Of a DNA stretch of 5,063 nucleotides, positions 261 through 4,386 are shown piece by piece; the stretch's first letter is position 1; every line of letters starts with the position of its first letter. The position numbers and the translations under genes are program-made. Source of the stretch: Thermococci archaeon (GTDB lineage: Archaea; Hadarchaeota; B88-G9); the NCBI GenBank assembly GCA_003660555.1, contig QMUK01000080.1, positions 1 through 5,063 of the forward strand. Reading direction: 5' to 3'. The notes below the pieces were generated by a model. That model searched no databases, was not told where the DNA came from, and was given only the letters and a program-made list of their open reading frames with translations.

Positions 261-890
261 ATGGGCCACGGGCCTAGAGAAAACCCCATGTTCATTGACG
301 ACTTACTTGAGTCTAGTATGCTCGAAAATGGGACTGTAGATGCCAATGAATTCCTAGCTAAGTTGACTACCGAATTCCTAACTAATAAGTTGATGCAGAA
401 GAAGAGAGATCTAAACCCAACGATAGTAATTTCTAGGAGACACATTAGAACTGAGAAAGAAAACTTCCTCTTCGGAGCTACAGAGAAACCAATCAAAATA
501 CTACCCTCAGAGTATAGTTCCGTGAGACTCGAGGCGCGCATTGCAACAATACTTTCAACTCATCACTTCATGAAGTCCTATGGGAAGAATTGGGAGCTTC
601 CTTTCCTCCTGATTACCTATCACGAAATAGGTCATCTTTTCGGAGCTCCAAGGAGCAATAGAACTGACTTGGAAGACCTAATCGGAAAGCATTGTAAAAA
701 TAGGAATTGCGCAATGGAGCAGGTGAATGTAAATGGCAAATTAGACGCTCTGGAGAAGGTCAAATACGTGGATCTCGATTCTCCTTATTGTAATCAATGC
801 CTAGAGGACATTAGAATTGGAATTACATCTTGGAAGAAGTTGAAAGAGAAATTAAAAGCAAGCGATGGACGAGATGAACTACAGTCCTAG
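261..890 (+). CDS. Archaemetzincin-like zinc metalloprotease with an insertion in the metal-binding motif
   Basis: This is a predicted zinc-dependent peptidase of the archaemetzincin group (peptidase family M54), of 209 residues in the intact frame. The metal site is visible: HEIGHLFG at 121-128 gives H121, E122 (catalytic base) and H125. Next come H144-C145, C150, M152 (Met-turn) and C177/C180. The family motif is HExxHxxGxxHCx4CxM followed by CxxC. All elements are present and HC-x4-C-x-M is exact, but 13 extra residues separate the glycine from the third histidine. NPTIVISRRHI (52-62) and FLFGAT (69-74) match the strand and FG segment that precede the active site in the family. No signal peptide or membrane segment is visible, so it is probably cytoplasmic. 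In-frame coding seems to continue upstream of 261 (see 114-260), so the N-terminus is uncertain. The 3' end overlaps the converging HD gene by 12 bp. Physiological substrates of archaeal members are not established. Confidence 0.85.
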   Translation: MGHGPRENPMFIDDLLESSMLENGTVDANEFLAKLTTEFLTNKLMQKKRDLNPTIVISRRHIRTEKENFLFGATEKPIKILPSEYSSVRLEARIATILSTHHFMKSYGKNWELPFLLITYHEIGHLFGAPRSNRTDLEDLIGKHCKNRNCAMEQVNVNGKLDALEKVKYVDLDSPYCNQCLEDIRIGITSWKKLKEKLKASDGRDELQS

Positions 891-1433: not shown

Positions 1434-2753
1434 CTAAACTAGGATCCTTACCCTCCTGTTAAATAGTTTCCTAAACGCTAGGAAGAAGAGCAAGCCCCTG
1501 AAGCTGACCTCTATGGCCATACATGCCCAAACACCAAAGACACCAAATCCAAGCACGTATCCGAGGAGATATCCTACTCCTATTCTCACACTCCAAAAAG
1601 AGATTAAATTAAGCACCACAGGTAGTCTAGTGTCTCCAGACCCCCTCATCGCCCCGCTCATTCCCATCGAGAATCCCAGCCCAGGTTCACTTAGGCCAGC
1701 AATCACTAGGTAGACAGTGGCTAAAAACAGCAGTGACTCGTCTTTTAGAAACGGTTTGGGAGTCATCGGAGCAGTCAAAGCCAAAGCCAATCCTGAAAGT
1801 GACATAGCTATTGTGGAGGCCTTTGAACTTTCCCAAGCCATCTCTACAGCTCTTTTCATATTTTTAGACCCTATTGACTGTCCTACTAGCACAGAGGATA
1901 CTATAGAGAAAGCTAGTCCAGGCATGTAAGCGAAACTCTCTATCTTCAGCCCGACTTGATAAGCAGCTAGGTATTCGGATCCGAATCTGGCTATTAGCGA
2001 TACGTACGCTGAGTAAGAAACGCTCATTGCAATTCTCTCAACTCCAGCCGGTATTCCCAAGTCTAACAGTTTCAGGAAAGTTTCTTTCCTCGGAAGCATT
2101 GGTTCAATTCCAATTCTACTCGGGATCACTATCAAGTAGACTAGGAAGGACCAGTAAGTAGAGAGCGCAGAGGCCAGTCCAGCTCCGAATACCCCTAGTC
2201 CATTGAATGGACCGAAACCGTATATTAACAGAGGATCCAATACTAAGTTCAGCGCATTAGCTCCTAGTCCTATCTTCATTGGAGTCCTAGTATCACCTAT
2301 ACCCCTCAGCGAAGCTGAAAGTGAGGCAGACATGTATAGCCCGGGAATGGACATTAAGAGTGGGGCCAAGTATGACTCAGTATCAGACCATAATTCCGAA
2401 GGAGCACCTATTGCCCTGAGATAGAACTCAATACCTGCCCTAGAGGCTATTAGTAACGGAAGGCTCAGCAGAAGAGACAATAGAAGAGACTCGAAAACTA
2501 TTTTCCTTACTTCTCTTGTTTTCCCAGATCCAAAAGTTTGGGAAACTAGGACAGTAGTTCCAATTACTGAGACCTGAGCCAAAGTGATGGTTATCCAGAA
2601 CATATAGGTACCGAGTCCAACAGATGCTATGGCTCTAGGCCCAAGTTTAGAGACAAAGAAGGTGTCCATGAGGAGAAGGAAGCTAGAGGAGAAATGTTCC
2701 ACTAGAACTGGGAGGGCTAAACTGACTACTTCCTTCCTGAACAAGAGGTTCAC
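1434..2753 (-). CDS. MATE family efflux transporter
   Basis: This 439-residue, very hydrophobic protein has about 12 predicted transmembrane segments in two similar halves, the length and layout of MATE (multi-antimicrobial extrusion) transporters. These export drugs or metabolites in exchange for Na+ or H+. The N-terminus has the family pattern VLVEHF followed by [10 protein letters not shown] (29-38). Each half carries the repeat after its third or fourth helix: [20 protein letters not shown] in the first half and [20 protein letters not shown] in the second, an internal duplication typical of the family. The first also has [10 protein letters not shown]. The start is GTG at 2753, overlapping the S8e stop as GTGA, so translation is probably coupled; there is no clear ribosome site of its own. 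The substrate cannot be told from the sequence. The C-terminus ends in a basic RKLFNRRVR tail, expected on the cytoplasmic side. Confidence 0.95.
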
Positions 2754-3145: not shown

Positions 3146-3682
3146 CTAGTCGTTGCTCCTACTTCCCAACTCCCTTTTTATCATTTCCTTAAGCTCTTGG
3201 GGGGAAAGACCAAAGTACTCCTTAACTCTTTCTGTTAAATGGAGGGCAGAGGTCCTCCCTAGAGGTTCGCTGGATATCAGCCCCATTTCCTCCAGCCTCT
3301 TTATATATTTGTAGGACTCCTTGCCAAGTCTCGAGGCCACCTCTTTCTTAGTTACACCCTCCTTGTATGCGATGAGAGCCAATACCCTAAGCATACCTCT
3401 CGGTAATCTGTATTTCTCCTTGAGGAACGGTTTTATCTCTTCTGCCACCCAACCTTTTAATCGCATAACGTATTTCCCGCTGGAAACCTCTACTATTTCC
3501 ATTGCCCTGTCTTCATATTCTCTGGATAGCTCTGATATTAATTCTAACAGATATGTCTTCTCCTTCCCAGTTAGCTTGAGTAGAGTCTCTTCTGGGACTG
3601 GATCCTCAGACGCGAATAACATCGCTTCAATCAGAATTTTATCTAGTTCTCGGCTCAATGTAAACCTCTCCAAACATTTCAT
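3146..3682 (-). CDS. scpB: Segregation and condensation protein B (ScpB), SMC complex kleisin-associated subunit
   Basis: ScpB dimers bind the kleisin ScpA and, with SMC, form the complex that compacts and segregates chromosomes. The protein has 178 residues, near the usual archaeal size, and contains the two winged-helix domains of the family. The first is at about 10-88 (ILIEAMLFASEDPVPEETL matches the family N-terminus). The second is at about 95-158 (LRVLALIAYKEGVTKKEVASR, then IKRLEEMGLISSEPLGR and LTERVKEYFGL). The tail is short and charged. The gene overlaps the end of scpA by 44 nt if the ATG at 3682 is used. A TTG at 3658 has GGAGAGG six nt upstream, would cut the overlap to 20 nt, and leaves the whole first winged helix intact, so it may be the true start. 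Co-location with scpA supports the call strongly. Confidence 0.95.
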   Translation of the reverse strand: MKCLERFTLSRELDKILIEAMLFASEDPVPEETLLKLTGKEKTYLLELISELSREYEDRAMEIVEVSSGKYVMRLKGWVAEEIKPFLKEKYRLPRGMLRVLALIAYKEGVTKKEVASRLGKESYKYIKRLEEMGLISSEPLGRTSALHLTERVKEYFGLSPQELKEMIKRELGSRSND

Positions 3683-4298
3683 CCTGCTCTAAATTTATTT
3701 TCCCATCTCTGCACAGAAACAGCAGGTAAAGGAAGACTCTCACAGTCCTTAGTCTGTCTCTGAAGTCTACCAGTACGGAAAATCTTATTCTCCTTCTGGA
3801 AGACCACATGTTCCTTATAGTCCTGTATAGGCGCTCTATCTCTCTTTTGACTTCTATGTCTCTCTTCTTGAATATCGATAACTTCCTAATGAGAGTCTTT
3901 TTATATCTTCTCCTAGTAACCTTCTTTTTCCCTTCTTCGCACTCTATAGCCTCCCTTAGAGCCGAGACTAGTTCCACAAGAGACATTTTCCTTCTAGTCC
4001 TCCTAGGCATGAGTTTAACTTCACCTCCGAAATCCAAGTTCGATACTAGGACTTCCTCGTTTTCCTTCCTGTGATCATTCGCATCATCGTCACTGTTACT
4101 CAGTTCAGCTAGGACAGCTTCAGATTTCATCCTTAGTAGAGTGGAGGAGGCCAATATGAACTTTCCAGATTCAGAGATGTCTATTTCTTTCTCTCTGATG
4201 ACCTCCAAGTATCTCTCTGTGAGTTCCACTATATCGATCTCCCAGGGATCCATTCCGCCTTTGTTCACTACCTCTATGAGCAAGGATATCGGGTCCAT
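3639..4298 (-). CDS. scpA: Segregation and condensation protein A (ScpA), kleisin subunit of the SMC complex
   Basis: ScpA is the kleisin that bridges the two heads of the SMC dimer and carries ScpB. In its 219 residues the N-terminal domain (1-64) shows the diagnostic MDPWEIDIVELTERYL (16-31) and LLRMKSE (54-60), the helices that bind the SMC neck. Residues 66-95 are an acidic, low-order linker (SNSDDDANDHRKENEE), where ScpB is expected to dock. A basic helical part follows (98-168, with RRTRRK and KKVTRRRYKK). The C-terminal winged helix (about 150-217) ends with GKINLEQDEMFGEVYI, the family's SMC-cap binding element. No start exists further upstream in frame, and the ATG at 4298 fits the family N-terminus. 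There is no well-placed Shine-Dalgarno site (GAGG lies 14 nt away), so the mRNA may be leaderless. It is the first gene of the cluster. SMC itself is not in this window. Confidence 0.95.
   Translation of the reverse strand: MDPISLLIEVVNKGGMDPWEIDIVELTERYLEVIREKEIDISESGKFILASSTLLRMKSEAVLAELSNSDDDANDHRKENEEVLVSNLDFGGEVKLMPRRTRRKMSLVELVSALREAIECEEGKKKVTRRRYKKTLIRKLSIFKKRDIEVKREIERLYRTIRNMWSSRRRIRFSVLVDFRDRLRTVRVFLYLLFLCRDGKINLEQDEMFGEVYIEPRTR
3665..3671 (-). promoter_or_regulatory. Possible ribosome binding site for a TTG start of scpB at 3658
   Basis: GGAGAGG lies inside the 3' end of scpA, six nt before an in-frame TTG (codon 9 of the ATG form). The ATG at 3682 has only a weak AGG upstream. 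The site would allow scpB initiation by ribosomes finishing scpA. Confidence 0.4.
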
Positions 4299-4330: not shown

Positions 4331-4386
4331 CTTGGGGATGAGAGAACCCTTCTGAGTGGTGATGAGGGTCTTGAGTGCTGACACAT
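4331..4386 (+). ncRNA. C/D box small RNA guiding 2'-O-methylation, predicted target C34 of tRNA-Leu(CAA)
   Basis: Four boxes occur in order with archaeal spacing. Box C is GGGATGA at 4335-4341 (one departure from RTGATGA, at position 2). A 10-nt guide follows at 4342-4351. Box D' is CTGA at 4352-4355, then a 3-nt spacer, and a perfect C' GTGATGA at 4359-4365. A 12-nt guide follows at 4366-4377, and box D is CTGA at 4378-4381. The ends pair only weakly (G4334-C4382, T4333-A4383), as is common in archaeal sRNAs. The total of about 50-56 nt is the normal archaeal size. Such RNAs bind L7Ae, Nop5 and fibrillarin. The D guide (GGGTCTTGAGTG) is complementary to ACUCAAGA, the anticodon-loop sequence expected for archaeal tRNA-Leu(CAA); the fifth base from box D pairs with wobble C34. 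The D' target is not identified. Exact ends are estimates. Confidence 0.78.

Follow-up and report, generated by a model that had tools for sequence, protein, structure and literature searches.

The window analysed here (the whole 5,063-nt stretch of contig QMUK01000080.1, from a member of the Hadarchaeota) carries genes for ScpB, ribosomal protein S8e, a MATE transporter and an HD-domain protein, together with scpA (segregation/condensation protein; 3639-4298, minus strand; Pfam PF02616, E 2.2e-17) and, on the plus strand, a predicted box C/D sRNA gene (4331-4386; core 4335-4381, ends not mapped) that is probably absent from the existing annotation. The sRNA gene is situated 33 nt upstream of scpA, in divergent orientation, and scpA is considered a neighbour and not a part of the guide. 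ScpA used as a query recovered distant relatives only (26-32% identity), and the two archaeal loci obtained in this manner (L078 and L079) contained no four-box RNA. Downstream of the sRNA gene, neither strand of the ~680 bases that extend to the contig end (4387-5063) showed a recognisable gene or RNA family. Elsewhere in the window (261-890, plus strand), a 209-aa open reading frame with a HEIGH...G motif followed by HC/C/CNQC motifs (and an insertion between HEXXH and the cysteines) was found to be weakly archaemetzincin-like (NCBIfam archmetzin E 5e-5, far under the cut-off; Pfam M54 not significant).

Read from the plus strand, positions 4335-4381 spell GGGATGA-GAGAACCCTT-CTGA-GTG-GTGATGA-GGGTCTTGAGTG-CTGA, in which box C (4335-4341), a 10-nt D' guide (4342-4351), box D' (4352-4355), a 3-nt spacer (4356-4358), box C' (4359-4365), a 12-nt D guide (4366-4377) and box D (4378-4381) succeed each other. 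The arrangement expected of the C/D class (boxes C, D', C' and D in order, guides of 10 and 12 nt, and a short D'-C' spacer) is present, and the box order and 10/3/12-nt spacing that an earlier note on this DNA had described stand as given, with a sole correction: box C departs once from the consensus RTGATGA, carrying G at its second position where RUGAUGA has U (GGGAUGA), while the other three boxes are perfect. We consider this mismatch the chief reservation about the anatomy, because the uridine of box C, situated in the k-turn loop, is listed among the features on which L7Ae binding depends (PMC7994747). The terminal stem of the sRNA is minimal; C/D RNAs of Nanoarchaeum likewise have ends without base-pairing (PMC3491384).

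We weighed the reading that the resemblance to boxes is fortuitous, or that the element is what remains of a guide RNA which has decayed and lost its function. Besides the imperfect box C, this reading could draw on the fold of the sRNA, which has no significance (z -0.5), though C/D sRNAs function without the need for a significant fold. It could also draw on the outcome of the Rfam comparison, in which 6 of the 7 matches in the window were archaeal C/D families placed at 4331-4384 (i.e. exactly at the location proposed in the earlier note), every one of them under its gathering score. The best of these (snoPyro_CD, RF00095; E 0.0011) reached 31.3 bits against a gathering score of 45, which leaves the RNA outside that family, and the match lay mostly in the boxes and not in the guides. 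The Rfam archaeal C/D families appear to be largely guide-specific, and a low score would therefore be expected for a new guide. Against a fortuitous origin stand the box controls: neither the reversed sequence nor any of 20 first-order Markov resamples (~8 Mb, both strands included) yielded an arrangement in a strict four-box scan, whereas in ~198 kb of the source genome the scan recovered two distinct C/D RNAs. One of these is the RNA at 4335-4381; the other (L013, ~2123-2170, minus strand; G000:C3 ~36496-36543) has perfect C and C' boxes, lies near tRNA-Asp and tRNA-Lys genes, and carries a D guide whose best fit is position 2353 of the 23S rRNA. Together with an independent fit to a tRNA wobble base and a guide in the same register in a second genome (both presented below), these controls make chance or decay highly improbable.

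The fit in question concerns tRNA-Leu(CAA), whose intron-less gene (L062, G000:C9:16538-16622) was recovered within a set of 42 tRNA genes (ARAGORN and Rfam; genome 91% complete). Positions 30-41 of this tRNA read GACTCAAGATCC, and the D guide forms 11 contiguous pairs with positions 31-41 (10 Watson-Crick and one G·U), so that C34 faces G4373, the fifth base upstream of box D (the N+5 register). Without sight of the tRNAs of this genome, the earlier note had predicted pairing with positions 31-38, an extension into the anticodon stem by G-C or G-U pairs, and C34 opposite the fifth base; the genome's own tRNA bears out all three, the extension consisting of a G·U pair at U39 and G-C pairs at C40 and C41. 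An anticodon arm mismatched to the guide, which would have spoken against this target, was not what we encountered. Among the 42 recovered tRNAs and the 16S and 23S rRNAs, tRNA-Leu(CAA) was the top N+5 target of the D guide (pairing score 21; duplex -17.0 kcal/mol). The pairing score alone is weak, because 74 out of 1000 shuffled D guides reach it somewhere in the target set; only 1 in 1000, on the other hand, equalled it at any wobble base. Two further observations concern the same genome. An exact copy of the 12-mer target (CACTCAAGACCC) at G000:C5:14913-14924 falls outside any tRNA, on the opposite strand of a predicted open reading frame start, and was taken as chance. A gene called by ARAGORN as an intron-bearing tRNA-Ser(CGA) (L051 1208-1299, G000:C7) has a length and a segment preceding the 'intron' (GGCTCATAG) which suggest instead that the tRNA has a CAT anticodon (elongator Met or Ile) and that its intron follows position 37.

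The second guide of the RNA raises the question of whether we are dealing with a genuine C/D sRNA that acts mainly on 23S rRNA, the match to the tRNA being secondary. For the D' guide (GAGAACCCTT), the best N+5 site is G873 of the 23S rRNA of the same genome, with 9 of 10 bases paired, all of them Watson-Crick (duplex -13.3 kcal/mol). This fit is suggestive at most, because 51 of 1000 shuffled D' guides are as good as the observed one. Moreover, tRNA-targeting sRNAs of Pyrobaculum typically combine one tRNA guide with one targetless guide (PMC7994747), and the RNA of the second genome keeps the tRNA target despite having a different D' guide. We regard a primarily ribosomal role as very unlikely, and prefer the reading in which the D guide directs the RNA to tRNA-Leu(CAA) while the D' guide would be either an orphan or aimed at a single 23S site.

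Comparison within the phylum provided the strongest support for this target. Guide and boxes were searched for in 27 genomes, which share with the source genome the phylum and not the family, and a clear equivalent was found in one of them, the distant genome G022: a four-box C/D RNA (L077, where it lies on the minus strand, and L083), flanked by the genes for a V-type ATPase subunit and for tryptophanyl-tRNA synthetase. Its 12-nt D guide (AGATCTTGAGTT) forms 12 of 12 pairs with the tRNA-Leu(CAA) of that genome (GACTCAAGATCT) in the same N+5 register. At base 41 the tRNA has C in the source genome and U in G022, and the opposing guide base is G in the former and A in the latter; it is this co-change, combined with the shared register, that carries the argument. 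Opposite tRNA U39, the guide has G (a G·U pair) in the source genome and A in G022. The two RNAs are alike in target, register, length of the D guide and even in the deviation of box C, which in G022 (GCGATGA) departs from the consensus at the same second base; they differ in locus, in the sequence and length of the D' guide, and in the D'-C' spacer. Two side observations belong to the G022 RNA: its D' guide (L077) matches the D arm of both tRNA-Leu and tRNA-Ser along 10 bases, G15 taking the N+5 position, and C34 of tRNA-Ser(CGA) in the same genome is a further fit for its D guide. The remaining 26 genomes gave no clear equivalent under the strict pattern; since that pattern is strict and many of these genomes are incomplete, absence from them is not established. 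Relaxed guide-plus-box matches in G008, G019 (two) and G026 were rejected, the remaining boxes being missing. Lack of box conservation among relatives had been named in the earlier note as grounds for doubt, and on this point the same target and register do recur, albeit in only 1 of 27 genomes and at the level of the phylum.

Taking anatomy, target and relatives into account, we conclude with a probability of roughly 0.88 that 4331-4386 is a canonical archaeal box C/D sRNA gene (~50 nt, plus strand) that guides the formation of Cm34 in tRNA-Leu(CAA). The protein partners of such an RNA are encoded in the source genome, i.e. fibrillarin (E 2.6e-96), L7Ae (E 1.3e-33) and Nop5 (E 3.2e-70), and the textbook guide mechanism is most likely: the sRNA would be transcribed from the plus strand and bound by L7Ae, Nop5 and fibrillarin, the D guide of the resulting RNP would dock on positions 31-41 of tRNA-Leu(CAA), in its anticodon arm, and the 2'-OH of the wobble C34 would be methylated by fibrillarin in accordance with the N+5 rule. 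We infer that Cm34, in turn, may favour the reading of UUG codons.

A broader specificity has also to be contemplated, in which a genuine C/D sRNA uses its D guide for both UUR-leucine tRNAs, i.e. for C34 of tRNA-Leu(CAA) and, through a tolerated G·U pair, for U34 of tRNA-Leu(UAA). In the same register, the latter tRNA (GACTTAAGATCC) forms 11 contiguous pairs with the guide, the one at U34 being G·U, and is one pair weaker than its CAA counterpart (score 20 vs 21; -14.8 vs -17.0 kcal/mol). Guided methylation, however, is usually weakened by a G·U pair at the methylation site, and the fit may merely reflect the anticodon-loop sequence common to both tRNAs. A separate guide for tRNA-Leu(UAA) in the same register was not found in the source genome, in a search that relied on one strict pattern and an assembly 91% complete, whereas in Pyrococcus each of the two tRNAs has a guide of its own (PMC7994747). 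A match in G012 considered as a tRNA-Leu(UAA) guide failed the four-box scan. A precedent for the pairing of these two targets is found in bacteria, where TrmL modifies position 34 of exactly tRNA-Leu(CAA) and tRNA-Leu(UAA) (PMC5485728). On balance we deem the service of both tRNAs by one guide speculative and rather unlikely, and retain C34 of tRNA-Leu(CAA) as the preferred target.

Guides of this sort have precedents. For Pyrococcus, a C/D sRNA has already been predicted to target C34 of tRNA-Leu(CAA) (PMC7994747), and PMC7668247 includes this nucleotide among the predicted C/D targets of P. furiosus; the accessible part of the latter paper reports Cm34 for some archaeal tRNAs, tRNA-Leu(CAA) not being among those it names. 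As the Pyrococcus guides have already been predicted, the one described here is not the first of its sort and is new only as to lineage. It shares with the Pyrococcus sRNAs (PMC7994747, PMC7668247) the tRNA, the nucleotide and the class of guide RNA, and differs in belonging to another archaeal lineage; the likeness described here is one of target and class. The C/D RNA in the tRNA-Trp intron of Haloferax and Pyrococcus (which guides Cm34 and Um39) is comparable as a C/D guide for the methylation of a wobble C, but it resides inside the intron of its own target, whereas the gene described here is free-standing and its target tRNA intron-less. Bacterial TrmL, which 2'-O-methylates position 34 of the two leucine tRNAs mentioned above, is a stand-alone protein enzyme that operates without a guide RNA, and its likeness to the present system is functional only.

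The finding adds a probable wobble-base methylation guide for an archaeal lineage represented by few genomes. Were both UUR-leucine tRNAs to be served, the guide would be an RNA-guided counterpart of TrmL with the same two-tRNA specificity, and the same two tRNAs would have become, by convergence, the substrates of both an RNA-guided and a protein-only methylation. Furthermore, the occurrence in G022 of a guide with the same target, at another locus and with another D' guide, suggests that the C34 target has been kept while the surrounding gene moved or was reinvented.
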